NCBI RefSeq assembly: GCF_910592395.1
Contig: NC_088322.1
Coordinates: 1 to 64,000, forward strand
Source of the DNA: Lineus longissimus
Lineage: Eukaryota > Nemertea > Pilidiophora > Heteronemertea > Lineidae
Length of the DNA: 64,000 bases
Reading direction: 5' to 3'
Below the pieces are notes generated by a model. It saw nothing but the letters and a program-made list of their open reading frames with translations, was not told the DNA's origin and made no database searches. Positions 3,868 through 59,907 of the stretch are shown piece by piece. Made by a program: the position numbers and the translations under genes. The stretch's first letter is position 1, and each line of letters opens with the position of its first letter.

Positions 3868-6800
3868 ATGATAATGGCCGGTACCGTTACGACAGACGAT
3901 TCGGTCAATCATTTTCTGAACCTCCTCAACATACACGACTATGCTTCGTATACTGGCATAGTCACGGGCGGAGAACCGTTCAGCATGATCAAACCGAATG
4001 TCGACATCAACGAGCTGAGGGACATGTTAGAACAATATCACTGTAAGAAACGAGACACACCAATGACGGGAATCCAACTACCTATCATTCTGTTGTACCC
4101 AAGTCCGGCTTACATAAAGTCGCTGGATCACGCTTTTCGCTACGATCCAGGTAGCTACATCGGGGAAGACATGTTTCAGCAAATAGACCGCATGTCCGAG
4201 ATTATGGTCTACATTATCATGTTGGAGATCGTGGCTACGCTAGAGTCGAAACCAATTGTGGTCAACTTGGAATACGTGCCCATAGAAGAGCAGATTTGCT
4301 CAAAAAACGATTTGCAAGCCGAGTCAAACACGGTAAATACCACTGCCGGTGACGTTGTCATGTTGGGCGTCCCCACTTCTACATGTCTATCGGACAACGT
4401 GACAGATTTGGCCAAGAATATGTCAGGTGGCCAAGGAAGGACGGGCACGACCGTGAGCAACTTGCAAATTCGCAAGAATCAAAAAGTGGCCCAAATGACC
4501 AGCATGTACATGAACATGTTTGGTGACTTGAAAAGGGTGACGAAAAATATAAAGGAGGACTTTATACGTTCAATGAAATGGCTTTTGGCCACGGGTTTCG
4601 TGCCAGAACGCGATAAAAAAGAGCGAGAAAAACGTTTGAAAAATATCAGAGTAGGTCTGGACAAGAATACGCTGGAAGTATTTTTAAACAAAATAATTGA
4701 TGAACAGCAGACTAATAAGAGCAATACGGTGCCGGTGGTGGTGGCGGCGGCGGCTGTTGATCGTGGAACGTTCGTGGAGAAAACCGTTCAGTTGTTTATG
4801 GAGGCCATAGACCAAACGCCCGTTGTGACGTGCCACGAATCGGATCGCAACAATCTGGTTGTAACCGATTATGGTGGACAAGTGACGGCCACCAATTACG
4901 AAGGCGATCCGGTATCGTTGTTTTCGTACGATAATCTAATACCACCGGAGAATAGGAACAGGAACAGTATGGACAGTGTTCATGACGACAATTGGGGTTC
5001 TATAGGTGGCAAGAAGCAGCACCAGAGGCAGCAGAAAAAGCAGCATAGTTCTTCTTCGCTGAACAACAAATCTATCCTATCGTCAGATTTGAATTTCCTA
5101 TCCAAGAGAGATTCGTTTCTCTCCGAGTTGTTACCATTGGAACGGCAATATGAGTTCATGACGAGAAACAAGGTTATACAATCGATAAAGAAAGAAACGC
5201 AGACCACGATCGTGGTGAGAACCATTGGTGACGAAGAACGTGGGGGTGTTGCTGGCGATAAGGACGGGTGTGGAGATATAGTCTCGGTACTCACGTCCAA
5301 AGCAAAAAGTTCCAAAGACAAAAAACTATCGAAAATGGTAAGCGACGAATACTTTAGCGTAGAGTTGGACAAGTTGGAGAAGAAAACTAGCAACGATATG
5401 AAAAATGCTCCATCCGAAGCAAAACGTGCAATGTTGGACGTTAACACGGCCGCCCACTACAGCAACAGTCGAAACGACATAACCACGAGTGAAGGGCTCC
5501 GAAAGCGATCGAAAGAGTTGAACATTGACGAACGGATAAACTCTTTAAACGCCATTATAACGGCCACAGACAATATGACCCCTTTGCGGTCGACTCATAC
5601 TCACCTTGCGCCCAGTATTTTACAAGCAACGAGAGGACTAGGCGGCGGTACACCGGCTGCCGTGACAAGACACAATCAGACCATGCCCACGGCGATGGAC
5701 TTTGCAGTTAGCGGTGGAGATGTGGCGTCAACGGACAATCCGACGAGTAGGATAGTGAAACAGAGTCTGACTGAACAAGAACTACAGAAATCGCTGGATA
5801 AAGCGAACAGAGAGGTTCTTAAATTACAAACGAACCTCGACAAGACAGAACGTGAATATGAAAGCGTTCGTTCCAAGATGCGTATACTAAACACACAAAA
5901 CCAATTCAGATTGATAACTAGCGATAAGATGCGGATGGACATGGCGTTCATGGCACAGGACAAGAAAGATATGAAAAGTGCTCTGGAAAAGAAAGATCGA
6001 CAATTGACTCAAGTGGGCGAAATGTTAGACGAGGTCATGAAACAGGCCAACCTTAACAGAGAACAGCGGGAACAGTTGATGGTATTGTTGACCAAGTATA
6101 GAAACAGTGCGGGCAACATTGGTAATGGTGGTGGTGGGTCCATGATGGGTGGTGCATCGCTGGAGACGTTTACAAACGGTCTACATTTTATAGACATCAA
6201 CACGATTATCAGAAGCATGTTCTTGACATTTCAACGAGATAACGCCGCGAGGACACGTGCTCGTCGTCGGACGACTGTGAAAAAGCATAAAGTACAATCG
6301 TCACACAACAGCGGTGGTTCAAAATCAAAGCGGTCAAAAACAGACGCATCCTCGGCGGGTGACATGGTGACCGAGCCAGACTTTGATTTCGATTCGATGC
6401 ACGATGTACTAACCAGGGAGTCGGTAGAGTTGACGCTGGCACAGTTGAACATCATAGTAAAACCAATGGTGAATGGCACTGTTAGCGTGACAGATATGAA
6501 TTTCAACAATTCGATTCTAAGTGAACGGTGGTCACACGATAGACTTATAGACAGTTCTATCACAGAGGTTTGTGATCTGCACCGTAGACCAACCAACATT
6601 CGCATGGACACCATGTATCTAAAGGTGATAGACGTGTCGCCCGAGTTGGGTTTACAACAGACCATGCGGAGACACATACGTCAAGACGCTGCCAAAATTG
6701 ATCTCGGTGAAAAGACACCGGGTGGCGGCCGTGACCCTAGCGGATTTGCCAAAAGTGAAATAGGTAGAGGTGGGACGACATCATTGTCAGATCGGTGTAT

Positions 6801-7280: not shown

Positions 7281-7766
7281 ATGGCGTCGAAACAGACGAG
7301 AAATTTTTCTTCACACGGTTTTAATTTGAAACAGAAAATTCAATCGGCGATCATAAAACGAAAAGAAAATCGTGAACGTGAACATATGTTTGATGAAATC
7401 ATGTCGTACACTGCTGACGACGATGCTGAACAAAAGGAGGAACATACTGTCGACGCCAGAAATTCGTTACCAAATCGTGTTCCATCCAGAACATATGAAG
7501 GTGACGTGCAAGTCTACAGAGTAAACATTTCATGGTTTGGTGTAGGCGGCAAAACCATGAATGGATGTGTATACACCAACAAATACGTGGCTGAATTGTT
7601 GCGTTTTTCGTCGTTTGATCCGACTAATGTCATCAATACAGAGAACGGGGTATTCCAGCCAACAAGTGGAGAGTATACTAATGTAAAGGGTTGTACACTA
7701 CTCAACGCGTTAACGTGTGATATAACATGTGTAGAATTGCAAGAGTGTGATTTGTTGCTTCAATGA
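7281..7766 (+). CDS. Hypothetical protein, 161 aa
   Basis: Not recognised. It starts at ATG 7281, after a 98-base gap from the previous stop. The first 60 residues are basic then acidic, with Lys/Arg-Glu alternation suggesting a charged helix. The remaining 100 residues look like a compact beta-rich domain with five cysteines clustered toward the C-terminus (CDITC-type spacing near 147-151). There is no signal peptide and no membrane segment. The stop codon TGA overlaps the start of an AATAAA signal at 7767. It is a plausible small tegument or nuclear protein, but no function can be assigned. Confidence 0.75.
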   Translation: MASKQTRNFSSHGFNLKQKIQSAIIKRKENREREHMFDEIMSYTADDDAEQKEEHTVDARNSLPNRVPSRTYEGDVQVYRVNISWFGVGGKTMNGCVYTNKYVAELLRFSSFDPTNVINTENGVFQPTSGEYTNVKGCTLLNALTCDITCVELQECDLLLQ

Positions 7767-7793
7767 AATAAAGTGTTATCAACCTCGAATAAA
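7767..7793 (+). terminator. Two AATAAA signals (7767-7772 and 7788-7793)
   Basis: The first AATAAA begins directly after the stop codon at 7764-7766. The second is 21 bases on and lies just before the next gene's ATG at 7798. Confidence 0.65.
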
Positions 7794-7797
7794 TTGT

Positions 7798-9225
7798 ATG
7801 TTTGTTGATAAAATGAACGTGACAACAGTTGGATTTAGTCGGACATCCGATGATGGTTCGTCGGATGACGTTGACACCCTTGTTGATGATATTGTCGCCC
7901 AATACCATTCTCTAGCAACAACACCACCAGCACCGCTGCACCAAGAGCAGTATTCGTCCGAAGCGAATACCATACTACACTCTAATGCACCGATTCTAAA
8001 AGAAATACAACCATTATTACCACGTTTACCGCAACCAGCTTTTCCATCGGATGACGAGGAGAAGGAATCTGATGTTGATGAATCTAATAAAAGCCACCGT
8101 GCATGCGTGTGTGGCAATACCGATCACCCATATGACATTATACACCGTCATATAATTCGTAGGCGTTGGGAGGAAAACACAGCCGTAACACCACCTATAG
8201 ATTCGGCACGAGAATCGAGAAGACGAAAAACTATCCTAGCCGTTTTTAATATGGGTATTGTTGACGAGAGGAGGCGAGGTAATTTGCATCTACCAGTGGT
8301 TGGGATCGACTTGTACTCACTGACCCATAAACCACGAATGCCACCGTGTCGAAATTTGCCAATGATGTGGTCTACGAAAGTGGCAGCGTGTCAAGCAAAA
8401 TACCGAGGCGACTGTGAAAGTCTAGTCACCAAGGCGTACGAAGTGTTGGTAAATCGGTGGAACGGTAAAATATTACTATCCGAGTTTATCATGTTTATTC
8501 TGCGCGATTGGACCGACGGAGACATTCTACGCTGGGTTGATAAAGAAGAAGAAGAAGGAGTAGGAGGAGGAGGAGAAAAAGGTGTATTCGATATAGTCGA
8601 CATAGACAAGCTGACCTATGTTTGGAGCTTGGCGTCGAACAATCCATATCTTACGCCGAAACAGATGCAACGCGGAATGATAAGTTTAGAGCGGTACAGA
8701 GGGTTGTTTCTAGTTCGACCATACGGTAAACCCAAGATGTATTCGTACAGATATTATTTTTCACCCATGTCTGGATGGAAAGAGTTTATGGTTAGGGAAA
8801 CGAATGAAGCTGCAGATCACCGAAGTAGCAGAAAACGAAAACTACGTCGCAATAAAACACCACCAGCACAATTACCACCATTGAAGAAACAGCGGTGGTG
8901 GCAGCAGCGGAATGAAAATAGAGTATTATCTACAAATGCTGCGTACAATTTTTTGTTGACAGTGCTACACGAACGGCAGTACAACATATTGGAGTGGTTA
9001 GAGCCAGATGAAGGGACGGTGCGCATAGTTAGTGAGAGTGATTTCATGAACCTGTGGAAACAGCGAGTGTGTAACGGATACGATGACAATTTTCAAGCGC
9101 TGGCCAATTTTGTACTGAAACATGCCGAAGAGGAAGACTACATCTCCGTGTTGTCCGAAGACAAAAAAGAATTTCGTCTGGTTGAAAGCGGATGGGAGAA
9201 GTTGATACCGAGCAGACTTTTGTAA
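7798..9225 (+). CDS. Hypothetical protein, 475 aa
   Basis: Not recognised. The open frame extends back to a GTG at 7747 inside the upstream gene, but the first ATG is 7798 and a better-context ATG follows at 7813. The N-terminal 110 residues are acidic and Pro/Ser-rich (disordered). Then comes a CVCGNTDH Cys/His segment near 101-108 that could be half of a zinc site. A Trp/Tyr-rich body follows, with an acidic-glycine interruption (Glu run then Gly run, about 250-260) and a basic Arg/Lys tract near 345-365 resembling a nuclear localisation signal. The C-terminal 120 residues look helical. No membrane segments. Nuclear localisation is inference. Confidence 0.8.
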   Translation: MFVDKMNVTTVGFSRTSDDGSSDDVDTLVDDIVAQYHSLATTPPAPLHQEQYSSEANTILHSNAPILKEIQPLLPRLPQPAFPSDDEEKESDVDESNKSHRACVCGNTDHPYDIIHRHIIRRRWEENTAVTPPIDSARESRRRKTILAVFNMGIVDERRRGNLHLPVVGIDLYSLTHKPRMPPCRNLPMMWSTKVAACQAKYRGDCESLVTKAYEVLVNRWNGKILLSEFIMFILRDWTDGDILRWVDKEEEEGVGGGGEKGVFDIVDIDKLTYVWSLASNNPYLTPKQMQRGMISLERYRGLFLVRPYGKPKMYSYRYYFSPMSGWKEFMVRETNEAADHRSSRKRKLRRNKTPPAQLPPLKKQRWWQQRNENRVLSTNAAYNFLLTVLHERQYNILEWLEPDEGTVRIVSESDFMNLWKQRVCNGYDDNFQALANFVLKHAEEEDYISVLSEDKKEFRLVESGWEKLIPSRLL

Positions 9226-15001: not shown

Positions 15002-17719
15002 ATGTCACAACGACCCGCTTTCGATTGCGATGCTGTGGCAGCTCTTGTTACCACCGAGCCAGTATACGCCGATTCGAAACATCCCATCACAATATCGGCC
15101 AGCTTGGCACAGGAAATAGTCACACGTTTCAAACAGAAAGGATCCGTGCCGACCAACATAGAACACAAAGATGACATGCGCACAGGGAAAGTGTACGACA
15201 TTGCCTACGTTACTCAGAAACCCACCTCGTTGCCAAAAGAATTGGAAAATGCCGATGTCCAAGGCTATTTGCACGTCAAGTATTTGATCTGCAACAAAAA
15301 TCTAATAGACGCGTTCAAGTCACGGGTCGAAGTGAGACTAGCCAATTTGGACATGTTTCAACCGTACAAGTCTTCGGATGGTTTTGTACGTGCGGACATA
15401 CCGCGAAAAATAGATCCCGACAAGGATGAAGCTGACGATTCCGTGCCCGTATGTAGAGACGTGACCGGTGGAGACGAAGTCCTATCCTCACTTGGTGGAG
15501 TGAGTCTGTCAAACGTGAAATCGGATTATGGCAACATAACTGCCATGGCACAATGTTTGGCGGGTCAGAGACCGGGAACGGTTACCGTTTCGGTCAAGTA
15601 TTATCCCGAAGTCCCCAATCACTTGAGTATGTTGTACGAACCGATAGATAACTTGACCAAAGAGGACTACATGGGCGTGCTCGGCAACATTGGTCGATAT
15701 AAAGTTGATCACGTTAACAAAATCAAAGACGATTTGAATATTCTCAATTTGCCTCAGAAAAGATTACATTACGCTTTGGTCCAACCGACCATTGCAACCT
15801 CACCAATTGACCACGGCATCGATACTTCTTCTGCTACCACTACAACTACTTCTCCTGCTATGGACTCGATAAAACAACAACCGTTCGTCTATGTAAATAC
15901 CGACCAATTCAAAGGCCTGATCAAAAGCCTGGTAGAAGACGTGCATAAGGAGGAAAAACGGGCCGCTGCCGCTGCAACTGTTCCTTTAACCGTCGATGTT
16001 GCTCATCAAAATAATTTTACATTGAATAGGCAAGATGGCGCAGTCAATCAGCATCGACAACAGCACCAAAACCAGTCCTCGTCCTCGGCAGCACAACCCT
16101 GTTCAACAACAACAGCAACTACGATGATGGACCATTCGTGCTGTACCAACAATTCTTGTTGTACCAACAACAACACCGCCTCTAGACAGACTCAACGTCA
16201 CCATGCGTTACATCAACAGCCGCAACACTCATCATATCACAACCAACATTACCAGCAGCATCAACCCATCGAACATCAACAACATCATCATCATCATCAT
16301 CGCCGCGTTGGTGGTCATCAAAATATTTCACCAGAGCAATACTGTCATAACATCGCTGGTGGAATTATGGGTTGTGGTGTGCAATGTCCTGTATCAAACG
16401 ACCATTTCACGATGAGCGACTCATCTCTACAGCAGCAAACTAGTGGCAACGGATCCTCTTCCGATATAAAGGCCACTGTACGCGAAGTACTTAATCAGCA
16501 GCACGACCACCAACAACGACAACAACAATCAAACAATATAGATGATAAAACTACTGCCACCGCTGGTGTCGACTCTTCTGATAATATGGAGACTGTAATG
16601 CGCAAAGTGTTAGGTGAAGTAATGTCCGGTAACACCAAGAAAGCAAAGTCCAAAACTGAAACGTCAAAGAACAAGTCTAAAAATGATGTTAGGGTTAAAT
16701 CTTCCAAGACTTTGAAATCATCAAGCCACAAACGCAACAACGCCTCCAACCAGCAGTCTCCTGGAAATTCTGACTCTTCGGATGACAGCAGCAACAACAG
16801 TTCGTCCGACGATGACGATTCTGACTCAGACAACGAAGGGAAAAATACCAACACCACCGCCTCCTCTTTGACAAGCGATTCCGATAACGATTCAGATGGC
16901 AGACGTGGCAAGAAAGTTTACAAACTCAAAAGCAAAGAGTACAAAAAGTTTAAACGCTACATGAAATACCGCAAGAGTAAGGACTCTGCATCGACCGAGA
17001 CCGCCGACACTGACGCACCATCAAAACCACAGAAATCAGACAAAAATAAAAAGATGAAAACCAAGCACTATCAGCAGACTGGCGGCAGCGGTGACAACTC
17101 CAGTGGTAATGGTGGTGGTGGTGGTGGTGGTGGTGGTGGTGGTGGTGGTGGTGACACGGAAACTCCTATGGAGGTAGGTGACACCACAAACAACAAGCCG
17201 CCACAAACAGCTACTGGGACATCCGCAACTGCGGCCAATACCGATAAAGCGTTCCACGAGAAAATCGATTTTATTTTCAACTCTATTCAAAACCAACAAC
17301 ACAAGACCAACATCCAAGAGACCAATAGTAGGTCACCACCGTCGACTGATGCTTCGGGCACTGACGCCACTAGCAAAGGTGATTCTATTACGCCCGCCAC
17401 TGCCGAGGACAAAAAGTCCAACGTCGATGATAATACTAACAACACCTCAACCGAAGAACACCACAGTATGGACGTCGAGCATCAAGAAGACAAAGTCATC
17501 CCTTCTGTTGGTGTGACTACACGATTGGCAAGCAAGCGAGTTCACTTTTGTACCGACGACAACACCAAAGTAATGAGTAAAGAAGAAATGAAAGATATAA
17601 GAAAACATATGTTTAGGGGAGTTCCGTTTATTCATTCACCAAACGGTCATCATGGCTACCCAAACCAAAATAGCCAGCAAGCAGTCTTCACCGCACCAGT
17701 CCACCGGAAATCGACCTAA
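15002..17719 (+). CDS. Capsid maturation protease fused to scaffold (UL26-like), 905 aa
   Basis: Predicted herpesvirus assemblin: a serine protease domain on the N-terminus of the internal scaffold, which shapes the procapsid in the nucleus and is then cleaved out. Seen: the conserved core with a Pro-x-Asn-Ile-Glu-His segment placing the catalytic His at 55, a Gly-Val-Ser-Leu-Ser segment with the nucleophile at Ser168 or Ser170, and the following Cys-x4-Gln-x2-Gly-Thr strand of the family (about 185-192). The second triad His expected shortly after the Ser is not obvious. From about 290 the protein becomes scaffold: a short conserved-looking Val-Tyr-Val-x3-Gln-Phe-x-Gly-Leu block, then Gln/His-rich, Ser/Asp-rich, Lys-rich and poly-Gly (GGT repeat) regions. 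The C-terminal 40 residues look conserved and hydrophobic, as expected for capsid-protein contact. Its 3' end overlaps the next gene by 68 bases in another frame. Confidence 0.83.
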   Translation: MSQRPAFDCDAVAALVTTEPVYADSKHPITISASLAQEIVTRFKQKGSVPTNIEHKDDMRTGKVYDIAYVTQKPTSLPKELENADVQGYLHVKYLICNKNLIDAFKSRVEVRLANLDMFQPYKSSDGFVRADIPRKIDPDKDEADDSVPVCRDVTGGDEVLSSLGGVSLSNVKSDYGNITAMAQCLAGQRPGTVTVSVKYYPEVPNHLSMLYEPIDNLTKEDYMGVLGNIGRYKVDHVNKIKDDLNILNLPQKRLHYALVQPTIATSPIDHGIDTSSATTTTTSPAMDSIKQQPFVYVNTDQFKGLIKSLVEDVHKEEKRAAAAATVPLTVDVAHQNNFTLNRQDGAVNQHRQQHQNQSSSSAAQPCSTTTATTMMDHSCCTNNSCCTNNNTASRQTQRHHALHQQPQHSSYHNQHYQQHQPIEHQQHHHHHHRRVGGHQNISPEQYCHNIAGGIMGCGVQCPVSNDHFTMSDSSLQQQTSGNGSSSDIKATVREVLNQQHDHQQRQQQSNNIDDKTTATAGVDSSDNMETVMRKVLGEVMSGNTKKAKSKTETSKNKSKNDVRVKSSKTLKSSSHKRNNASNQQSPGNSDSSDDSSNNSSSDDDDSDSDNEGKNTNTTASSLTSDSDNDSDGRRGKKVYKLKSKEYKKFKRYMKYRKSKDSASTETADTDAPSKPQKSDKNKKMKTKHYQQTGGSGDNSSGNGGGGGGGGGGGGGGDTETPMEVGDTTNNKPPQTATGTSATAANTDKAFHEKIDFIFNSIQNQQHKTNIQETNSRSPPSTDASGTDATSKGDSITPATAEDKKSNVDDNTNNTSTEEHHSMDVEHQEDKVIPSVGVTTRLASKRVHFCTDDNTKVMSKEEMKDIRKHMFRGVPFIHSPNGHHGYPNQNSQQAVFTAPVHRKST
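15860..17719 (+). CDS. Possible nested scaffold-only product, 619 aa
   Basis: In herpesviruses the scaffold is also made alone from an internal start within the protease gene. Met287 (ATG 15860) has strong context (G at -3, G at +4) and lies 7-10 residues before the conserved-looking scaffold block beginning Phe-Val-Tyr-Val, the expected place for such a start. No clear TATA box lies directly upstream, so initiation might be from a short internal transcript with a weak promoter. It is inferred by analogy, not demonstrated. Confidence 0.45.
   Translation: MDSIKQQPFVYVNTDQFKGLIKSLVEDVHKEEKRAAAAATVPLTVDVAHQNNFTLNRQDGAVNQHRQQHQNQSSSSAAQPCSTTTATTMMDHSCCTNNSCCTNNNTASRQTQRHHALHQQPQHSSYHNQHYQQHQPIEHQQHHHHHHRRVGGHQNISPEQYCHNIAGGIMGCGVQCPVSNDHFTMSDSSLQQQTSGNGSSSDIKATVREVLNQQHDHQQRQQQSNNIDDKTTATAGVDSSDNMETVMRKVLGEVMSGNTKKAKSKTETSKNKSKNDVRVKSSKTLKSSSHKRNNASNQQSPGNSDSSDDSSNNSSSDDDDSDSDNEGKNTNTTASSLTSDSDNDSDGRRGKKVYKLKSKEYKKFKRYMKYRKSKDSASTETADTDAPSKPQKSDKNKKMKTKHYQQTGGSGDNSSGNGGGGGGGGGGGGGGDTETPMEVGDTTNNKPPQTATGTSATAANTDKAFHEKIDFIFNSIQNQQHKTNIQETNSRSPPSTDASGTDATSKGDSITPATAEDKKSNVDDNTNNTSTEEHHSMDVEHQEDKVIPSVGVTTRLASKRVHFCTDDNTKVMSKEEMKDIRKHMFRGVPFIHSPNGHHGYPNQNSQQAVFTAPVHRKST
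17111..17152 (+). repeat. GGT repeat (poly-Gly)
   Basis: About 14 uninterrupted GGT units encoding poly-Gly in the scaffold part of the protease/scaffold protein. Confidence 0.95.
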
Positions 17720-19377: not shown

Positions 19378-19443
19378 AATAAAGAATTTTTCACACATAA
19401 CTTATTTGTTTATTGGTTCTTTCACAAAATACAGGTTTTTATT
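19378..19443. terminator. Convergent poly(A) signals between the 572-aa gene and the recombinase
   Basis: Plus-strand AATAAA at 19378-19383 serves the 572-aa gene. Minus-strand AATAAA (read as TTTATT) occurs at 19409-19414 and 19438-19443; the latter shares a base with the recombinase stop codon (19443-19445). Two convergent transcripts thus end within 70 bases. Confidence 0.7.
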
Positions 19444-21221
19444 CATTTTTTGCGACTCAAATCCTTACGAGAGACTTGTCCCGTCGTCATAAATGTCCAC
19501 ACGAGTTTAGACATTCTGGCCATATTACGGTCAGCAGACCGCACGTCGTAAGTTCTTTTTTGCATCGCGTCCGAGTGTTTCATCAAATTGGCCAAGTCAT
19601 GTTCGTTACTGACGCCGAGATCTGATTCCAGCATTGCTGAAACAACCGATTTTCTGAGCACAGTACAACTCGTTCGACTAGTTTTGTTCGAAGCTACAGA
19701 AAATTCCTTTGTGATAATGTTGGAAATCTCACATTGTTTTAGAGGTCGACCATTCCATGACAGGAAGACATTTGATGTCACGTGACCATGTTTTTCCACA
19801 TCAAAGCTTGGACTCAGAGGACGAATGTGGTCGATGAATGCTCTTAGCTGTTTGAAATGATACGCTTTCAGCGATAGCTGGGCAGCACCGTAGACCGACA
19901 CTGTTTTATGTTGAACAACATTGAGTACGTGTCTGTTGTGGTAAACGTTTTCACCAGCTGCATCTACTTCACCAACTTTTAGATTGATTAAAGGTCCGGA
20001 ACGAGTCGCGTTGTTGAGACACAATAACATAATCAGATAGTTCCGGGCTCGGATGTAACAATGACGAAGACCATGATGACATTCATCGTCAGTAGTGTCC
20101 TTGTTGTATTGTTCCTTTTTCATACAGTCACGTAAAATCTTGTTGCCAATGATTGCCCGTGTACCTTTGAGATATAACTTGATGTGATCTGTCGTTACGG
20201 CTGCTTGTCGGTGTTCGAGCTTTTTTATTGCACACCGTTTCAAAATTTTCTTTTGCAACGAACGATTCCACAATTGAATTTGTTTGACGATACGTTCAGC
20301 AGTTTCCGAGATAATCCAGTCCTTGTGAAGAAGTTTTCCATACTCGACAAACTTTTTGAAATCAAGTAAGTAGTTTTTCACTGTACTGGCTGTTTTTGAC
20401 TTGAGTAGAGGAGAAACAAACTTCACCTCAAGTTCTTGTAACTTCTCATACACTATTTCTGTTCTGAAATCTTTGCCATATATAGCAATAATCGTTTGTA
20501 CATGTTTTACTATCTGCCCGGTTTGATGCTCGTTTCTCTCACCACCACCAAACGTCTGTAACCATCGTCCAAAAGATGTAATCTCATTGGCAAGCTGATC
20601 ACTGGAGCAATCAGAATCACCTGGCGATGCATGAGATGGACAATCGTCTACGCTGTTTGTAACGTTGATTTTCTCTATTCGAAGGCTTTGTTCATTAGTT
20701 TTTTTCTGACACAACGACGACGATGATTGTGAGTTGGCGGCTTTTTCGTATCTACACAATTTCATGTAATGTCTGTAAATTGGATCTGATTGTTTCAATT
20801 TATGTTTGCTACCGAGTAGATGCTTGTCAATGCGTCTTACTACACTAAAACAATCTTGAACTGGGCACTGATGGAGAAGGTTCGAATGTACGTCCTTATC
20901 GGCATCAGCACAATTCCGAGTACTGTTGATTTTCTGCCGGTTTTGCGCTCTTTGTTGCTGGGAATACTTGAGCGATGCAAGCCGATCGAAGTTATGAAAA
21001 TCTCTCAAATGACGTGGTAGGCTGGCGACTTGTTTATCACAGAACGAACATCGATATCGATACACTCGCTCCATGATATATAATCTCTTTGTCTGGATGT
21101 TTTCCAGTAGAGAAATATATACTGGTGTGTTGGATACCGATAGCGTGTCCGTGTCTATCGTACTTGGTTGGGCACAGGGTGTCTGGTATTTGTCGGCCTC
21201 ATAATCAAAATGTTTGATCAT
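19443..21221 (-). CDS. Tyrosine recombinase with N-terminal zinc fingers, 592 aa
   Basis: Predicted DNA strand-exchange enzyme of the lambda-integrase/Crypton superfamily. With Met1 at 21221, all catalytic positions are visible in order and spacing: R407 (in Ala-Thr-Arg-Ser-Gly), K439 in the beta-hairpin, T520-x2-R523 in place of the usual His-x2-Arg, H549 and the nucleophile Y558 nine residues later. Near the N-terminus are two Cys2His2-like modules (Cys-x2-Cys-x9-His-x4-His, then Cys-x4-Cys-x9-His-x5-His). A helical core-binding-like domain follows at about 225-340. ATG 21221 has weak context; ATG 21074 (543 aa) has strong context and begins just before the first finger. The segment upstream of 21074 is a diverged duplicate of the neighbouring glycoprotein's tail. 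The gene starts 5 bases after that glycoprotein's stop, on the same strand, and appears intact. No such enzyme belongs to the herpesvirus core gene set. Confidence 0.88.
   Translation of the reverse strand: MIKHFDYEADKYQTPCAQPSTIDTDTLSVSNTPVYISLLENIQTKRLYIMERVYRYRCSFCDKQVASLPRHLRDFHNFDRLASLKYSQQQRAQNRQKINSTRNCADADKDVHSNLLHQCPVQDCFSVVRRIDKHLLGSKHKLKQSDPIYRHYMKLCRYEKAANSQSSSSLCQKKTNEQSLRIEKINVTNSVDDCPSHASPGDSDCSSDQLANEITSFGRWLQTFGGGERNEHQTGQIVKHVQTIIAIYGKDFRTEIVYEKLQELEVKFVSPLLKSKTASTVKNYLLDFKKFVEYGKLLHKDWIISETAERIVKQIQLWNRSLQKKILKRCAIKKLEHRQAAVTTDHIKLYLKGTRAIIGNKILRDCMKKEQYNKDTTDDECHHGLRHCYIRARNYLIMLLCLNNATRSGPLINLKVGEVDAAGENVYHNRHVLNVVQHKTVSVYGAAQLSLKAYHFKQLRAFIDHIRPLSPSFDVEKHGHVTSNVFLSWNGRPLKQCEISNIITKEFSVASNKTSRTSCTVLRKSVVSAMLESDLGVSNEHDLANLMKHSDAMQKRTYDVRSADRNMARMSKLVWTFMTTGQVSRKDLSRKK
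21128..21200 (-). repeat. Diverged duplicate of the glycoprotein tail region (copy A)
   Basis: Copy A at 21128-21200 and copy B at 21392-21495 share a 12-base identical block (TGTTGGATACCG) and further blocks CGTACTTGG, GGGCACAG, CTGGTA and TCGGCCTC in the same order. Copy B carries about 27 extra bases. Both are translated in the same frame, giving Glu-Ala-Asp-Lys-Tyr-Gln in both the recombinase and the glycoprotein. Confidence 0.7.
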
Positions 21222-21225
21222 CAAT

Positions 21226-43636: not shown

Positions 43637-45603
43637 TTAGAACATCATGTTCTCCTCATCCTCCTCGTGGTCACCGACGACCTCAGTGTCGTTTGCGTCT
43701 TTGTCATCGATATTCTGCTCACCACGAGCGATTCTTATCTTGGTTATCTCCTCCATTATGGGCGTAAATACGCGATCTCGGAAGAGTTCGACGTGTCCAC
43801 CATCACTTATCAGTGTGGGATAGAATTTTGTGATGACGGAGAACACTTCGTTGGTTATGTTCAAATCGACGTAGGTTAGGATGTTCTCGAGCATAAATTT
43901 GGCTAGTCTAGCCCATGTAACCTCTTTCTTGTCAACGACCGCACTAACCAGCTCTTCGCACACGGTTTTGCCAAGCGTGTAGGATATCTTGTTGTCGTCG
44001 CCCCACTTTGCAGCTGCCTTTTTGCTAAACGCCTCACTCTGTTTGAACGCTGGGCACAATGGTCGAACTAATAAGACGTCCATGTCCGATTCTGCATTTA
44101 TCGCAGCAGTTGATGAGATACCAGCACCAATGTTACCGGTAACGGATGATACGGTTCGTTTCTCGGATGGTTTTTGTGTCAGTCTCGACATGACGTATCC
44201 CTGGTGATCGGTTGGTGCTCCTCCAGTCTTGATGGAGACAAAGTAAGATGTTCCCACAGAAGCGGCGTACGAGTTGATGACTTGTCCACCGTATACCATG
44301 ACGGGTCCTTGCACGTCATTACCACTGGCGGCATCAGTGACCGAGGGTAGAGAACAATCTGCTACGAAAGCCGTCCTCATTTGTTTGATTGTATTACCAA
44401 TCGAATGGACACGATTCGGTCCTATCAACCAACGTACACATGTGTCTGTCAGTAATGCCCTCCTCTCGTTGTCACGACTGCCAAAGTCACTGTGTACGTT
44501 GAATTGTCTGGCAGGCGACCGACTTCCCAGTATGATACATGCACTCATCAACGCATGTACCTGTCCTGTGAGGGACGAACCGATCTTGTCGTGGACTAAA
44601 CAGTCCGACAACAATTGTGATATCTTTCTGTCCAAGTCTATATCATGTTGGTACATGTGCAAGAACTTAACCATGGCACCGTGTGGATTTGTTCTCTTGA
44701 TAGTAGCTGATGTGCCGTCAACAACGACTGCCTCCATGCGACCCATCTCAGCGTTAAGTTCACGAAATCTTGATACAAGAAGACTGACGATACTCTTGAT
44801 GTCGTGGTCCATGTGCATTATGAAATCGGGAGCACTGGTCTGTACGGTTTTCATAAAGTCAACAATGTTCGTTGCACCTTTGAGAATGGTCTGTTGGTCA
44901 GTAAAATCCGAACAGCGGAAGAAATTGAATATCATGCCACTCTGGTGTATACAATCGCTAATCTTTCTCATGTCATCTCGAAGTATATCTGCAGCGTCTG
45001 CCTTATACTTGGTCATGTTGTCTACGTCTTCCGCTGCTGTACCCGCCGTAGTAGCAGCAGCAGCAGTAGCAGCCATGGAGAAAAGAGGTGGTAGTGGAAC
45101 AGCGTGGGTGGTGGACATCATCGGTTCTTTTGTTGCACTGCTCATCAGTATGGATTCTTCATCATGGTTGTCGTTCATTTCCCTTTCATGCCGCATCATC
45201 AACTGAATGTCAGTCATGTCAGCATCTCTCATCGAGGTGGCACCCGCACCATCACCAACAGAAGCATTGGCGCGTCGTATATGTGGATATTCAGTTTTTT
45301 CGTAATTGAACAGATCACTCTTTGCAATGTACTGGGTAGGATAGATACAATTGTCTACGGTGATGGTCTTGGTCCTGGTCACGTCTGATTCCTCGCGCAA
45401 GTCTTCATCAGTGAAGAATAGAGTTGGAATGCGGATTTCAGCATCTGCATTTTTACTTTGCACCTGATTAAGTCTGGTTTGCAACCAGACAGTCTTGTTC
45501 GTGGGATATTGTTCATCATCGTCATCATTGTCTTCCTCTGATCCTGTTGGCTCAGCATCATTTTTGCCAATGGTCTCTTTCTTCTTCTCATTCTCTCCAA
45601 CGC

Positions 45604-45673
<70 letters not shown>

Positions 45674-48600: not shown

Positions 48601-49274
48601 ACTCCTTTTTCCTCTCTTCTGAAAGGCCGGATTTTTCTTCCGTTTCACGTGCAAGTTTAGCACTCTTAGCAGAGTCCGACAAATGAATGCGTCCGCTGCT
48701 GGTCACATAATTGGATTCGCCATACATGTCTATATTCCCACGTCCGTTTCTAACCCTATCCAATGGCACCGTGTTGGTCGTGACAATATGAGTGATCATG
48801 GCTGTCTTCTGATCCACTTTAGACACCCGCTTGTCGCTATTGTCGGATATGGCACCCCAGGTAACGTCTAACAAAAACGTGTAGTAATCTCTGGCCATCA
48901 TGGCCGGGTAGACGTGTTCGCGGTAATGCTCTTTGCGTTGGAAATTGTCCAATTCCGACTGGGTGGGTTTCAATTGTATGGTACTGGGCGTGTTCGTTCG
49001 TACCATGCAATCCATGAGCGAATACAGTTGATCGTTATATGACCGTTTGTGTAGCGGGAATGTGTCCTCCGGGTTATGCATGAAATAGTTGAGGACTGTG
49101 TCGACGAAAACAGACCCAAATTTGTTCCGGGTCTCGTTAGAGTCCATGTACACGGCGAGATCCCTACGACGCATGTTGAACGCCGATTGTGTATACACCG
49201 GGGCAATGTAACACCAATCTTCGTCGGCAGTACAATCTTCTTCCATCATCTGTTGTTGTTGTTGTTTTTGTTGG

Positions 49275-49359
<85 letters not shown>

Positions 49360-52886: not shown

Positions 52887-55800
52887 TCACTTGCAAATGA
52901 ACGTTAGATTGGTTTGAATGAAATTTTTCCCTGTCTTTTTGTGCTTTGTCATCAACGAAGACAGACTGACAACTTCCGATGCACTAGGCAAGAGAAAGTC
53001 TTGATCGTTTCCATCGTCATCAATGACTATGTGCTTGTCTGACGAATTACTGTGTGACGTTGTCAGTGGTTGTGCCGACTGGTGTGTCAGTGGTGCTGGT
53101 AGATTCGCCACTGGTTTTTGCTTTTTCATCGCATTGTTTAGCACGTAAATGTCATCGTTAGACGGTTTCATCAGTTTCCCATAACACTGTTCGTCACGCC
53201 GGCCGTGATTATAGTGAGTGATGGGAATTTGGTGAACAACAGACAGTCCATCGTGGTCTATTTTCTTTCTACAAGATATGTTTAGCTCCATGATGTCATT
53301 GTAGAAAACCAGACGGACACACCGGTCGGACTTGTACAACCACTTGTCCATTTTCTTCATGGCGTGTAGTATCTCGTTCAAATACACAGATAGCCCACCG
53401 TCATGACTCCACACCCAGCGTTGTTGCTGTCTATCGTCGTCTCGGACGATCTTGCAGTTGGTCAACACTTTGTTCAACTGAGCATTGTTATTGTCAAAGT
53501 AGATTCGTTTCGTACTTGTCTTATTAGCGGAGGTCCGTTCCTGATTATGATGTCGCTTTTTACTAATATCACATGTAGTAGTGTTGACTTTGACACGAGT
53601 CGAATTAGCCACAGGCGAGAATTGCACGATCCTATAGACTTTATTGGGCAACGGTGACTTGCTGTCGAGACTCTGGAAACCTACCAGAGTATCGTGCAAC
53701 TGTTTGCCGGCACATTCGAAGGCAAAGCCATTCTGTCTGTTTGGACAGAAGGAATCTTTGTTGACTAGTTCACTATCGTTGTTCACAGTATCTGTTATGA
53801 ACGGTGTGCTTCTCGTTTGCACCCTGTATTTGTGCATATCGATGATGTAGTACTTGTTGACCCCGTCTTCTCTGTCATAAGACAGGCGTATTCTCTCGTC
53901 ACACCACGAATTGTAGTTTGGGTATAGCTCTACGACGGCAGTGGATGGTACTGCTCGATCCTTGGTGTCATAGTATTCGATGGTGTTTATTAGAAACGCA
54001 CCCATTCTGTTCGATCCATCCTTGATGGTGTAAAGTTTGGCGTCCTTTGTGGAAATAACGTACCACCTAAACGTGCACTTAGCGTTGACGTACACGGCCC
54101 ACAGATCGACAGTCCTGTGTGTTGCTTCGGCTCGTATGTTGATATGATACTGTTTGATCGTGTCCGATTGAACTTCGTTGGGGTGTCGTTTGTTAAAACG
54201 TATGCACTGCTTCCGAATGAACGAGTCGGATATGGGTGCTGTTTTTGTTGTTGATGCTGCTGCTGCTGCTGCCGCTGCTGATTCTGTAGGTTTGGGAAAA
54301 TCAGAGAATCGAGAAATGGCATAGTGCGGATCAGTCATAACCTCTAGGGTAACACGGTCGCGATTTTCCGTGTAGGTGTTCATGTAGCGAAGAGCCCTAT
54401 TGGACAGGTCGTTTTTCATCGTTTGTTTTCTGTTGTTTCTAATCTGTTCACTTCGGGGTATTGATGTGCCTCCACAACAGCCATGTTGTTGAACTAAAGG
54501 TGGTGATGATGATGATGATGATAACAACAATCGCTTTGTCTCGTGCTCTATACTATTACCACCACAAGTAGATGTTGTTTTATTCAACAGGTTGTCTCGG
54601 CACGTTTCCATTTGCTTAATTTTCTCACGCATCTTTCGAGCACTATTGTACTGGTTGGCGGTGAAGCGAAACCCGTACCTATCAGGATGACCGATCATTG
54701 ACTCGTGAAATTTAGTCAGGCTGGCCGACGTCAACTTTTCAACGTGTCGTCGTCGCTCGCGTTTTCTTTGATTCTCTCGCTTCTCCATGGGACAATTGCT
54801 TAGAATTGTGTCGAGAAACGTTTCTTCGACTCCGGTTATCTGTGCCTGACAACTTCGCGTCAACACCACATACATGGGCGCCTTGTCTGCCGGTATGTCC
54901 TGCTTTCGACACTCAAGCATGGCCGCTTTCGTTGCTATCGTGTTGCATTTTTGCATGTCGCCTACTTTCTCCTTGCCCTGCACCATGGTCACATCGAGCG
55001 TCATCAGACCCGAAGCCAACTCGTTTCGCAGAGTGGATTTGTTGTTTTCAAACCGCTTTATCTCGGCCAATTTTTCCCTTACCGCTCTACGCTCACCCGC
55101 TGCCTTCAGTTGATCTACTTCGTCGCACATTCTCTTCTGTATGGCCACTATTACTTCTTCGATGAGTATCGTGCGATAGCCCAGGTCGTAAAGAGTGTCT
55201 CCAAATTGCAACGCTCCGTCTGGATCTCTGTTGAGCAATAGATGCATGTTACAAAATTGCAGCTTTGTCTTGATTTCGGTAGATGTTTTCTTCATGCCAG
55301 GTAGACCAGCCACCTGGAACGATACGCGATACGAATCTTTGCCAGTTGGTTCCAATTTGAATCCACAATAGTTCTTCGGTCCCTGACACACGGTACCATT
55401 GTGAAACATCTTTTCGAGCAGAAATTTACTCGGTTCTTGACCGGCATTGGCAAAGTCGAGAAAGTCTTGCGTAACACGTACAATTCGATCCATGATCAAT
55501 TTAGTACTCGAGCGTGGACTCAGTTGCAAGCGTTCGACAAATTTGTGAATGTCTCTAAACTCATCTTCGGTACACATGAGCAGAAAGTCACTGTCCGTGT
55601 CAGAGTTGCATATTTTCTCTCCCCACTTTTCCTGCCACAGCCTAGCCATTCGTTCGGTCTGTCCGCGACCGTACATGGTGACCAGAGCGGCAATCACCGA
55701 CCAATTCACACCACAGAAACCGTATATGATGTTCAATAGCAACTTGTAGGCTTTTTGATTTCGATCGTAATTTTCCTTTTTGAACGGGTCCGTTTCTTCA

Positions 55801-58800
55801 TTCATAAGTGCCTTGAAGTAAAGACGCTTACCCAACATGTCGGCACACGTTTTACTTTCTATTGTGTGGTACAGCGAGTACAAGGCCTTGGCCACAACTA
55901 GCTTGACGATTTTGTTGTCACGCGAATAGACTGTGATCAACACCTCCAATTCGTAGTGAACGCCACGTTTTAGTTTGTTTCGTTTTATGTACTCCATGGT
56001 CAACATACCGGTCATACCTACGTCTCTCTGCATAATGACTCTCGGGTACATGTTGGTAGCATCGATACACACGCACGGCACTGTTATGACGCTTTTCACA
56101 CCGCCACGGATTCCACCTGGGTACTTTAGGAATTCAAAGTGTTTCATTGGATCGTATACAAACTTTTTATTGTTCATCTCCTCCTCGGTGATCTTTCGCA
56201 CTGTACCCGGCATGACGATGCGATCGTACCATGTATCGTTGTCGGCCAGCACCGAACTGACCAGTGCCATCGGTCCGTTTTCGTACACGATTCGGAGGGG
56301 TTGAATGGTTTTCATGCACACGGAAGTATTAAAGTTTACCGAGTCGATTTCCACAAATATCATTGCCGTCAATATGGTGTCGAGCAGGTTGTACTGTACA
56401 ATGACGTCCGTGTCACCCTTTTCATAAGTTCCGAATAGATTGGTGTATTTTACTCGTTCGTCGTCTAGTTTGGTCACGCCAAGTCTGCGTTTTGATGCGG
56501 TGGAGAGTTCGGTCATTTTCGAGGCCGTGTCGGCCACCAATGGCATAGTGTCTACCACGATGTTGTTATTGACCGCTATGTGTTTAATGTGACGGAAGAT
56601 GTCGTTTAGACCTTGAACTCCCTCTATCTGTTCAGTAGATAGTGGTGGTGTTGGATCTGTTGTCGAATCTGCTGTTGTTGTATCTTGAGAAGCATCATCG
56701 TGGACAAAACACAAATCGTCGTCTTCGGTACAGTAGTTGTACAACAAACCGTCATAATCATCATAAGATTGCTCTCTGGTGAAACATGTAGTAGAAGCAG
56801 TAGTAGTAGTAGTAGTAGTAGTAGCTGTTTCGTCGGTGGAGACATTGGTGTTGGTGTCCACTCTGTGACGTTTCGTTCGTGGATGACTACCGGAGGACTT
56901 GCGTTTTTTTCCACCGCTGCTACTGCTGCTACTACAAAAACTGTCAGAATTGTTGTTCCCACTGAAAAAAAACGATACAAAGTTGGCCGAGTCTTTGTGA
57001 ATCGAAGAGCTCCTCACCTCTGCCAGTCTGTCTGAAATACCGGCAACAATTCGTCTATTCGATCTAAGTTTCTCCCATTCTTTGTTTCGTTTGTCGATCA
57101 TTCTCTGCTGTTCGGTGCCGTTTATTCGGAACACCAGTTTAGAATTGCTATCCATTCTGTGTGAGAAACTCAGTGTGAACGCATTGTTGAATCGGGACAT
57201 TGGTCGCCATTTGTTATCTTGTTTAGATTTAAAATCTACAACATATTCTTTGGGTTCCACATGACCCATGTAGGGACACACTTCACGCAGTCTATTTTCT
57301 AGTACCATCCAATCGAAACGTGTAGAGTTGAAGCCCAAGTGTAGATGCGCCTCCCTCATGTAGGCGATTAGTCTCACTATCAACTCGGCTTCGGTGTTGC
57401 ACAGGACTACGAAGAAGGTCTTGTTCGGTACTAAATTTAATTCAAATTCTCGTGTAAACTTACTTCTCCCATCTGCTGCTGCGTCCTCATCGGGTTTGCC
57501 TTTTATGTGTTCCAATATGCCTTTGGTTATAGCTTCGAGATCACATCGTCCACCCGTACTCAACAGTGGCGGAGGTTGACCGTCTTTACCATTGGGTGGT
57601 CTGACTAGAAACACGAGGTGTTCTTGGAAGGTAGGCTTACCGGTCAGTGGATTCTTCTCGTGGTTAAATTTGGTGACCGCTGCGCTTATGATCATGTCGC
57701 ACTGGGTGACGGGCAGTGTATATTGACCGTAGCTCGTCTCCAAATCGACACTGACACACTCTTGGTTTTTTGTGATGTTGTTGCCAATCTCTTCGCGCAG
57801 TTGTTCGCGCTTGTCTTTTGCCTCACCACCACCACGATTCTCTACGTGTTCACGCCAGAAAGACGTCATCAAATTTCGGATAGCACTCTTGATTTCTATC
57901 AAACGTAACCTGACCAGCTTTATGAACGTCGAGTCGAGTATGTTGCCACATTGCACGTCCAGTTCACCGTTCCTAGATCCGATGCTTACCATTTCGTGAA
58001 CAAAATGAGTGAACTTATCATCGTCTCCGTTCAAATCTAGATCATCCCTGAGTGCGTGAAGGATCAGTGATTTAAAGTCTTCTTCCCACGATACAACAAA
58101 CCGACGGGAGGATGCGACATCATCGGTGATAGCATCTTCTTCTTCGTCAACAGCAGCAGCAGACGGTGAAAACTTTTGTTCAAACTTTTTGTGCATGATA
58201 TAACCGGCAACCTTTTTCGCGAATGATTTCACTGCGTTGGTGTTCATTATGTACCTGTCTACGTCGTTGTCAGATACGACGGGTGATAAAGGAGTGGCCA
58301 TCGAGAGACTCTGTGCGATGCTATTACGGAGATCGGTTTCGACCAATTTCAATTCTTGTTCATATGCTTTTTGCATTTCTTCATCTGTCTCTTCGTTGCT
58401 TAAGTTGTACCAATATTCCGGAATCACGTGCGTATCATCGTCATAGTGTACCTCTTCGTTGTCGAGCGGGTTGTTGTCGCTCTGTACGTGACATTTGACA
58501 ATCAACTGTTCAATTTGAGCTCGTAAATTTCTTAGTATCTCTGCCTTCTCATCATTAACATCATCGGCATCATCATCATCATCATGATCATCATTAACAT
58601 AATCCCGACGACTACCATTACCTATCTCGATGCATCGCTCGGTGTGTGGAAATTCAACATCTTTGAAATACACATGCGTTTCAAAGTACTTGATGCGATC
58701 GTCGTCTTCTTCTTCTTCTTGTTCGACATCCATACGCGTAACAGTAGCGGAGGCGGTGGCGGCGGTGGCGGCGGCGGCGGTGGCATATCTGGAGGTGAAA

Positions 58801-59744
58801 AACGAAGTTGAAATTGCATTATCATTGGAGTTGTCCGACAAATGCTTTGGTGTGCTACTCGATGAAGTCGGTGGTGTGTTGTTATTCCGGTTGTTGATAA
58901 TGCACCAGTTACGATCCCATGACTCACATTCGTGAATCGGAATGTATTCATCCACACTGTTTTCTGCTTCCCCTATTCTTCTTCTTCTCCTCATGATCCC
59001 GAGCGGTTTGTAATTTTTCGAGACCATGAATCTCGTGAAGCCAGAAATGGCCGTATCGTGCACTTCTGGAGTGAAGATCGAAGACAAGTAGGCGTCATTT
59101 TCCAGTTTTTCCAGTAGTTTGTGGGGACTCGGGCCTTTGCCGGTACAGTATAACTTAATAGCGTGCTTCGGACCACATACAGCTCGGCGATATGTTCTAA
59201 CCACTGTTAACTTTGCGTCCACTATACCGGTCAGATAACCACCCCGTGGGCCCCGAAGATAATTGACTAACGTGATTAGGGCGTTCGTTTCGACAAAGTC
59301 AAGTGCTAGAGTTTCATTTTTGAAACGTAGGAATATCGCTTTTCTGGGGCCGTAAAAATTGACGAACATCGACCTGTGGCCATTGATGATGGTCTTACCT
59401 GGTGTCAATCGTCTGCATTCTATTACGATCGGATGCGAAAATAGTTGCGTGTCCGAATGGAGACCATCGATTCTACTGCGTTCGAGGTGTTGTTTTTCTC
59501 TGATGCACCGGTTTAAAATATTTCGTGGTATAGACGTGACGTTACATATTGCTGCGTTTCGTTTATCGTTGTGCACCAGAGACTCTTCTTGGAATATATT
59601 AGCATAGCACATAATTTTCTCCTCGTCATCAACGCTACTGTTGATGGTGAGACTACTACTGGCATTCAATCTATCTAACCAGTATCGTTTCTCGACCTCT
59701 ACAGTTTCTCTACTGGTCGGTGCACCTTTGAAGCGGGTGTACAT
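52887..59744 (-). CDS. Family B DNA polymerase, 2285 aa
   Basis: Catalytic subunit of the replicative polymerase with 3'-5' proofreading. The frame extends to ATG 59843, but TATATATA (59784-59791) and TATATA (59796-59801) lie between the two ATGs, so transcription should begin near 59755-59770 and ATG 59744 is the likely start. Visible motifs: Exo I D667-x-E669; Exo II Phe-Asn-Ser-Thr-x-Phe-Asp with D811; Exo III Y1118-x3-D1122; polymerase motif A D1228-Ala-Thr-Asn-Met-Tyr-Pro; motif B with K1331/K1334 and Asn1338-Ile-Ile-Tyr-Gly; motif C D1382-Thr-D1384. The N-terminal 600 residues and the 300-residue spacer between Exo II and III carry Ser/Asp/Glu, Thr and Ala tracts. About 750 residues follow the palm and thumb, longer than usual. 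At 2285 aa it is about twice a typical herpesvirus polymerase. All catalytic acids are present. Confidence 0.97.
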   Translation of the reverse strand: MYTRFKGAPTSRETVEVEKRYWLDRLNASSSLTINSSVDDEEKIMCYANIFQEESLVHNDKRNAAICNVTSIPRNILNRCIREKQHLERSRIDGLHSDTQLFSHPIVIECRRLTPGKTIINGHRSMFVNFYGPRKAIFLRFKNETLALDFVETNALITLVNYLRGPRGGYLTGIVDAKLTVVRTYRRAVCGPKHAIKLYCTGKGPSPHKLLEKLENDAYLSSIFTPEVHDTAISGFTRFMVSKNYKPLGIMRRRRRIGEAENSVDEYIPIHECESWDRNWCIINNRNNNTPPTSSSSTPKHLSDNSNDNAISTSFFTSRYATAAAATAATASATVTRMDVEQEEEEDDDRIKYFETHVYFKDVEFPHTERCIEIGNGSRRDYVNDDHDDDDDADDVNDEKAEILRNLRAQIEQLIVKCHVQSDNNPLDNEEVHYDDDTHVIPEYWYNLSNEETDEEMQKAYEQELKLVETDLRNSIAQSLSMATPLSPVVSDNDVDRYIMNTNAVKSFAKKVAGYIMHKKFEQKFSPSAAAVDEEEDAITDDVASSRRFVVSWEEDFKSLILHALRDDLDLNGDDDKFTHFVHEMVSIGSRNGELDVQCGNILDSTFIKLVRLRLIEIKSAIRNLMTSFWREHVENRGGGEAKDKREQLREEIGNNITKNQECVSVDLETSYGQYTLPVTQCDMIISAAVTKFNHEKNPLTGKPTFQEHLVFLVRPPNGKDGQPPPLLSTGGRCDLEAITKGILEHIKGKPDEDAAADGRSKFTREFELNLVPNKTFFVVLCNTEAELIVRLIAYMREAHLHLGFNSTRFDWMVLENRLREVCPYMGHVEPKEYVVDFKSKQDNKWRPMSRFNNAFTLSFSHRMDSNSKLVFRINGTEQQRMIDKRNKEWEKLRSNRRIVAGISDRLAEVRSSSIHKDSANFVSFFFSGNNNSDSFCSSSSSSGGKKRKSSGSHPRTKRHRVDTNTNVSTDETATTTTTTTTASTTCFTREQSYDDYDGLLYNYCTEDDDLCFVHDDASQDTTTADSTTDPTPPLSTEQIEGVQGLNDIFRHIKHIAVNNNIVVDTMPLVADTASKMTELSTASKRRLGVTKLDDERVKYTNLFGTYEKGDTDVIVQYNLLDTILTAMIFVEIDSVNFNTSVCMKTIQPLRIVYENGPMALVSSVLADNDTWYDRIVMPGTVRKITEEEMNNKKFVYDPMKHFEFLKYPGGIRGGVKSVITVPCVCIDATNMYPRVIMQRDVGMTGMLTMEYIKRNKLKRGVHYELEVLITVYSRDNKIVKLVVAKALYSLYHTIESKTCADMLGKRLYFKALMNEETDPFKKENYDRNQKAYKLLLNIIYGFCGVNWSVIAALVTMYGRGQTERMARLWQEKWGEKICNSDTDSDFLLMCTEDEFRDIHKFVERLQLSPRSSTKLIMDRIVRVTQDFLDFANAGQEPSKFLLEKMFHNGTVCQGPKNYCGFKLEPTGKDSYRVSFQVAGLPGMKKTSTEIKTKLQFCNMHLLLNRDPDGALQFGDTLYDLGYRTILIEEVIVAIQKRMCDEVDQLKAAGERRAVREKLAEIKRFENNKSTLRNELASGLMTLDVTMVQGKEKVGDMQKCNTIATKAAMLECRKQDIPADKAPMYVVLTRSCQAQITGVEETFLDTILSNCPMEKRENQRKRERRRHVEKLTSASLTKFHESMIGHPDRYGFRFTANQYNSARKMREKIKQMETCRDNLLNKTTSTCGGNSIEHETKRLLLSSSSSSPPLVQQHGCCGGTSIPRSEQIRNNRKQTMKNDLSNRALRYMNTYTENRDRVTLEVMTDPHYAISRFSDFPKPTESAAAAAAAASTTKTAPISDSFIRKQCIRFNKRHPNEVQSDTIKQYHINIRAEATHRTVDLWAVYVNAKCTFRWYVISTKDAKLYTIKDGSNRMGAFLINTIEYYDTKDRAVPSTAVVELYPNYNSWCDERIRLSYDREDGVNKYYIIDMHKYRVQTRSTPFITDTVNNDSELVNKDSFCPNRQNGFAFECAGKQLHDTLVGFQSLDSKSPLPNKVYRIVQFSPVANSTRVKVNTTTCDISKKRHHNQERTSANKTSTKRIYFDNNNAQLNKVLTNCKIVRDDDRQQQRWVWSHDGGLSVYLNEILHAMKKMDKWLYKSDRCVRLVFYNDIMELNISCRKKIDHDGLSVVHQIPITHYNHGRRDEQCYGKLMKPSNDDIYVLNNAMKKQKPVANLPAPLTHQSAQPLTTSHSNSSDKHIVIDDDGNDQDFLLPSASEVVSLSSLMTKHKKTGKNFIQTNLTFICK
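56793..56822 (-). repeat. ACT repeat (poly-Thr)
   Basis: Trinucleotide run (AGT on the plus strand, ACT on the coding strand) encoding Thr in the spacer between polymerase exonuclease motifs II and III. Confidence 0.85.
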
Positions 59745-59783
59745 GATGTTGACCACTCGGCACCACATACACACACATACTAA

Positions 59784-59801
59784 TATATATACGCATATAT
59801 A
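59784..59801 (-). promoter_or_regulatory. TATA elements of the polymerase gene
   Basis: Two TATA-type elements, 59784-59791 and 59796-59801, lie 40-57 bases upstream of ATG 59744. The stretch they occupy would otherwise encode an odd Cys/Val/Ile-rich leader, which argues against the upstream ATG at 59843. Confidence 0.65.
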
Positions 59802-59907
59802 CGAAATACATTGACACAGATGACACCATCCCTGGACACTCATTAGGTATCTACATCACAATCAATAGACATAATGAAACAAAGATGGTGTTCGTATTGG
59901 TGTGCAT

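Follow-up and report, generated by a model that had tools for sequence, protein, structure and literature searches.

A putative tyrosine recombinase, probably a telomere-directed viral integrase, in an endogenous large DNA virus of Lineus longissimus

The recombinase gene and its product

The window, i.e., the whole stretch of 64,000 nucleotides analysed here, lies at the very start of a contig of 16.3 Mb (C15:1-64000) in a 391-Mb genome assembled into 30 contigs (sizes of 16 to 29 Mb, n = 7). An open frame covers positions 19443-21224 on the minus strand without interruption, and its first ATG opens the recombinase gene (Table 1). For the base composition of the window, the probability of 592 open codons occurring by chance is ~3e-15. 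The initial annotation had described an uninterrupted frame with two zinc fingers and the tyrosine recombinase residues R407, K439, R523, H549, and Y558, together with Thr in place of the usual His (T520-x2-R523). All of these features were present, the residues lying at the positions given, and the catalytic residues and finger ligands were invariant in the five rows formed by the window protein and its four database homologues (P0002 to P0005). The His of the HxxR motif varies among known tyrosine recombinases, and Thr520 occupied its position in 8/8 aligned recombinase rows. The nucleophilic Tyr was kept in seven of these eight rows and was missing from the copy at the right end of contig C4 (C4-right). 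Comparison of the window recombinase with the copy at 4.18 Mb on C15 gave a dN/dS ratio of 0.26 (Nei-Gojobori, 551 codons), indicating that the reading frame has been under purifying selection.

Table 1. Positions of the recombinase gene, its parts, and the polymerase gene in the window
Feature	Position	Strand	Description
Tyrosine recombinase gene	19443..21221	minus	ATG at 21221; 592 aa plus stop
Zinc finger 1	20994..21050	minus	residues 58-76; putative ligands C58, C61, H71, H76
Zinc finger 2	20802..20867	minus	residues 119-140; putative ligands C119, C124, H134, H140
Helical core-binding (possibly SAM-like) domain	20232..20603	minus	residues 207-330; sole confidently modelled part
Catalytic domain	19548..20051	minus	residues 391-558; R407, K439, T520, R523, H549, Y558
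Family-B DNA polymerase	52887..59843	minus	2318 aa; Pfam and PDB profile

Profile searches partly bore out the assignment to the tyrosine recombinases: the window protein matched Pfam family PF00589 over residues 391-558 (E 9.7e-4), yet its score of 19.4 bits was below the cut-off of 27.1. The family was matched in four of eight members of the protein group, namely, the window protein, the C15:4.18-Mb copy (18.3 bits, also under the cut-off), and the relatives on C2 (28.2 bits) and C4-right (27.4 bits), which exceeded it. The four database homologues gave no PF00589 match. One of them, P0003, exceeded the cut-off of DUF818 by 0.2 bits in the region ahead of the catalytic domain, and this family looks unrelated. 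A profile alignment with five phage integrases lacked statistical significance (E 0.03, probability 1.7%) but placed R407, K439, R523, H549, and Y558 in register with R212, K235, R311, H333, and Y342 of lambda Int, the catalytic residues of that enzyme.

Among some 5.8 billion proteins searched, the four homologues were recovered, all nameless and 40-65% identical to the window protein, and a wider protein search added nothing beyond them. Phage records contained no match to the window recombinase, a scan of the genome contigs database for its relatives found none, and viral contigs queried with the recombinase and the polymerase, singly and as alignments, yielded no relative. Searching the PDB with the recombinase sequence was negative, and there was no recombinase among 16 PDB matches (best E 0.15); finger 1 weakly matched a finger of ZFAT (E 0.15). 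The AlphaFold model had a mean pLDDT of 48, with the catalytic part mostly below 60, whereas ten-residue blocks from residues 211 to 330 averaged 78-90 except for two at 61 and 71. Foldseek returned 126 matches to the model at E<=10 and none at E<=0.001, including for the helical domain. We take the window protein to be a putative tyrosine recombinase on the basis of motif, profile, and conservation rather than structure.

Copies of the virus and recombinase relatives in the host genome

The window is part of an endogenous virus that resides in a host chromosome next to a second, nearly identical copy, since the contig is 16.3 Mb long, the genome has TTAGGG telomeres, and the second copy runs on in C15. 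The first copy enters a 500-N gap at C15:86010-86509 and the second was traced from C15:101488 to 200973, with 98.3-99.9% identity between the pieces compared (the second copy was only partly fetched). Beyond about C15:210 kb, the GC content of 10-kb stretches was 39-43% in seven of nine and 46-47% in the other two. C15 lacks the left end of the virus, and the provirus is incomplete there. The host telomere repeat is TTAGGG: C4, C5, C8, and C11 begin with a (CCCTAA)n array or have one close to the start, and a (TTAGGG)n array lies near the right end of C4. No array of at least three telomere units was found in the fetched C15 stretches, which do not include the left end of the virus, and the arthropod-type telomere motif TAACCTAACC was absent from the window. 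In the second copy, 780 bp with TGTA...TACA ends are inserted (C15:116924-117703); this insertion, absent from the window, sits inside the counterpart of ORF 15002-17719 and resembles a mobile element.

Searches of the genome gave 37 recombinase matches from 44 scored candidates and 18 polymerase matches. On C15, recombinase copies at 3.66, 4.18, and 4.52 Mb were 67-68% identical to the window protein, the 4.52-Mb copy having an additional piece at 60%, and further recombinases at 3.82/4.29 and 3.83/4.30 Mb were 39-56% identical by piece. Besides the two polymerase copies of the window type, polymerases at 3.50, 3.91, and 4.38 Mb of the same contig were 27-40% identical by piece to the window type, some of them with an internal stop. 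Between 3.50 and 4.52 Mb, the order polymerase, 67% recombinase, 41% recombinase, and 39% recombinase was repeated in one orientation, with successive polymerases 410 and 471 kb apart. Judging by this gene order, the 67% recombinases and the polymerases at 3.50, 3.91, and 4.38 Mb would be parts of one virus. If this pairing holds, the two virus lineages of C15 have recombinases that are 60-68% alike by piece and polymerases that are 27-40% alike, and the recombinase either moves between lineages or evolves more slowly.

Ten loci were found on other contigs (C1, C2, C4 left and right, C5 left and right, C8, C11, and two on C17, one of them weak), the fragments in the leftmost 18 kb of C4 being counted with the C4-left locus. 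In eight of the ten, the distance to a contig end is 52 to 40,449 bases; both C17 loci lie away from the ends. A junction in which (CCCTAA)nCCCT is directly followed by RTTTACTTGGTA was shared by C2, C4 left, C8, and C11, the four boundaries at hand, with the 3' end of the recombinase facing the array in each case. The sequence after CCCT at the array boundary was ATTTACTTGGTA on C4 left, C8, and C11 and GTTTACTTGGTA on C2. Identity to the window protein is ~45% for the C2 and C4-right proteins, which group on a branch of their own in a tree of ten rows. The DNA of the chromosome-end copies agrees at 84-99% over the longest aligned blocks, so that these copies may represent one subtelomeric repeat spread by exchange rather than separate insertions. 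Spread by subtelomeric exchange is thus a live alternative to repeated insertion for these copies.

Some chromosome-end copies are split. Their interpretation as multi-exon genes was rejected, the break in the C4-left copy being a 163-bp insert with GTGTA...TACAC ends. This MITE-like insert, at 4868-5029 of the C4-left stretch, produces the same break in the C1 and C11 copies and is absent from the C2, C4-right, and C5-right copies. A tandem satellite of about 70 bp adjoins the chromosome-end recombinases on C4 (5926-9999 of the stretch) and C5 (1-730 of the stretch).

Affinities of the virus

Pfam was used to scan 21 of the 31 window ORFs of at least 150 aa plus 20 flanking ORFs; the ten other window ORFs were left out because they overlap scanned ORFs and were thus taken as chance frames. 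Among these 41 ORFs, in which the recombinase domain stayed below its cut-off, the cut-offs were exceeded solely by the family-B polymerase, an Ets domain, and an HMG domain, and reverse transcriptase families were not listed. The Ets domain (PF00178, 41 bits, E 2.4e-10) belongs to a 492-aa ORF at 7747-9225 on the plus strand, which had no PDB match at E<=0.001 and was likely captured from an animal host. The HMG box (PF00505, 41.2 bits) belongs to a 290-aa ORF at C15:205003-205872 on the minus strand, close to the right-hand side of that copy of the virus which lies second on C15. Ets and HMG domains in the virus make an animal host probable. Many window ORFs carry long trinucleotide repeats that yield homopolymer runs, as does the 2272-aa ORF at 43637-50455 on the minus strand, which had sub-cut-off matches to TFIIA (27 bits versus 36.2) and to Herpes_capsid PF06112 (16.7 bits versus 25, E 0.0081). 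The polymerase profile gave 88 PDB matches, and the structure model of the viral polymerase had a pLDDT of 36. The polymerase of the second copy (C15:163271-170074) lacks ~50 codons (residues 623-672), its frame measuring 2272 versus 2322.

The closest described system is the similarly laid-out set of telomere-specific tyrosine recombinases (YRs) of crustacean endogenous nimaviruses. Kawato et al. described 27 endogenous nimaviruses in crustacean hosts with TTAGG telomeres and found that those residing in telomere repeats encode a YR family of their own, set apart from the YRs of nudiviruses, NCLDVs, DIRS, Enterprise, and Cryptons (PMC10871703). Telomere-specific YRs were assigned to majaniviruses, pemoniviruses, some whispoviruses, and possibly clopoviruses; the majanivirus YRs typically contain a C2H2 and a SAM-like domain, and five of seven key residues were located in them (PMC10871703). 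The gene studied here resembles them in being virus encoded, in having an incomplete set of canonical residues, and in a C2H2 zinc domain (two finger motifs) that precedes the recombinase domain. The region of residues 207-330, a confidently modelled helical domain with no fold match, is a candidate for the SAM-like part, a nature that is putative here. The viruses are alike as multicopy large double-stranded DNA viruses with a link to telomere repeats (PMC10871703). They differ in that the host telomeres are TTAGGG here versus TTAGG in the crustaceans (PMC10871703) and in that the telomere junctions seen here lie beside related genes and not beside the virus.

It is possible, though on the doubtful side, that the virus belongs in or near the Nimaviridae, outside crustaceans, and that its recombinase is truly orthologous to the telomere-specific YRs of nimaviruses. 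Apart from the similar layout of zinc finger, SAM-like, and YR domains and the telomere link (PMC10871703), this would agree with a polymerase of 2318 aa, compared to 2455 aa in Nimav-1_LVa (Bao et al., PMC7016691), and with the 410- to 471-kb repeats of the second C15 lineage, which fall inside the 410- to 580-kb range of clopoviruses, many copies of which are apparently episomes or concatemers (PMC10871703). Arguing against it, the likeness is one of described layout; the host telomeres are not of the crustacean TTAGG type (PMC10871703); and no window frame, the largest having 2318 aa, is comparable to the proteins of 4332 and 6068 aa in Nimav-1_LVa (PMC7016691). Gene order compared by eye with Nimav-1_LVa gave no convincing match.

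The initial annotation had placed the recombinase in a herpesvirus-like genome, a view that the gene content does not sustain. Of the 41 ORFs (21 window and 20 flanking, from an incomplete provirus), none matched a herpes family at its Pfam cut-off, and the sub-cut-off Herpes_capsid match was the single one. The best 60 of the 88 PDB polymerase matches were led by polymerase delta and archaeal enzymes and bore no herpesvirus label, many of them being called just "DNA polymerase." A terminase-type motif was not found in ORFs of >150 aa in the window and six flanking stretches (C15:196-200 kb excepted). A malacoherpesvirus-like virus, akin for instance to BelcheriHV-1 of the lancelet, is therefore unlikely, even though the window has a GC content of 42-50% in 2-kb windows, one ORF gave the sub-cut-off Herpes_capsid match, and Branchiostoma belcheri is known to carry an integrated malacoherpesvirus (150 kb, 45.7% GC; PMC12373286). 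A search of the host genome for the GFP family, chosen as a lancelet marker and run without a positive control, gave no match. In that virus, similar in being large, integrated, and of comparable GC, 27 of 62 ORFs resemble malacoherpesviruses, and the available part of its description names no recombinase or integrase (PMC12373286). Teratorn is likewise a large endogenous virus that brings its own integration enzyme, but it is a herpesvirus with a piggyBac-like transposase (PMC10175614), and a herpesvirus identity is unsupported here.

Other systems also combine mobility or endogeny with this enzyme class. Tyrosine recombinases are mentioned in the literature for virophages and are reportedly present in endogenous giant viruses of the alga Ectocarpus (PMC13236599). 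The latter viruses, nudiviruses, and NCLDVs resemble the present one: they are large, have DNA genomes, and encode a tyrosine recombinase, and some are endogenous. The YRs that nudiviruses and NCLDVs encode are called distinct from the telomere-associated YRs (PMC10871703). Crypton, DIRS, and Enterprise/Starship are eukaryotic elements with a tyrosine recombinase, and Kawato et al. kept the nimaviral YRs separate from DIRS, Enterprise, and Cryptons (PMC10871703). By description rather than by sequence, the nimaviral telomere-specific YR is a better match to the layout than a Crypton or DIRS origin.

Proposed role of the enzyme and significance

We favor, with moderate confidence, the interpretation that the gene encodes a site-specific tyrosine recombinase acting as the integrase, and perhaps the excisionase or concatemer resolvase, of an endogenous large double-stranded DNA virus. 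It is supported by the open frame, the catalytic residues, the finger motifs, the neighbouring viral polymerase, purifying selection, and the chromosome-end gene family, as well as by the two copies at the start of C15 and the gene order repeated at 3.50-4.52 Mb. The integration role proposed in the initial annotation is likely because a recombinase-encoding large DNA virus is found in a chromosome; its attribution to a herpesvirus did not stand. The integrase is probably telomere directed, the telomere link being seen for the relatives and extended from them to the virus. Against a telomere integrase, the fetched C15 stretches contain no telomere array of three or more units, the C15 copies at 3.5-4.5 Mb are far from a contig end and their repetition may partly be an assembly effect, two of the ten loci on other contigs (those on C17) are not at ends, and the end copies are ~45% identical to the window protein. 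In the proposed mechanism, the zinc fingers and helical domain would bind the target, which may be telomere-like repeat DNA as for endogenous nimaviruses. Tyr558 would attack one strand at a time, via a Holliday junction, and a circular viral genome would be joined to the chromosome.

It is quite unlikely that the recombinase works within the viral life cycle, in concatemer resolution or segment inversion, and that chromosomal residence is incidental: the gene order repeated in one orientation on C15 would fit such a role, but the chromosome-end relatives share one junction and the nimaviruses provide a precedent for integration (PMC10871703). That a free virus or a contaminant was built into the contig during assembly is highly improbable. 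C15 does begin inside the virus and contains the 500-N gap, but the second copy continues into sequence of mostly lower GC and bears the mobile-element-like 780-bp insertion, and more divergent copies lie inside C15.

Among the papers that literature searches listed, we recognised no report of this recombinase type in viruses outside crustaceans. Tentatively, endogenous large viruses that settle at telomeres may exist outside crustaceans, in a TTAGGG host, and have a recombinase family in common with small elements of chromosome ends. The integrase may also have been exchanged among viruses, because the recombinases of the two C15 lineages are more alike than their polymerases if the pairing by gene order holds. 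This would extend the zinc-finger recombinase type from crustacean endogenous viruses to a host whose telomere repeat differs and would show that one recombinase family is common to virus and chromosome-end elements. It would also suggest a route of germ-line passage for large viruses, at telomeres, and the recombinase relatives near chromosome ends offer a hint of the way in which such viruses may become established in genomes.
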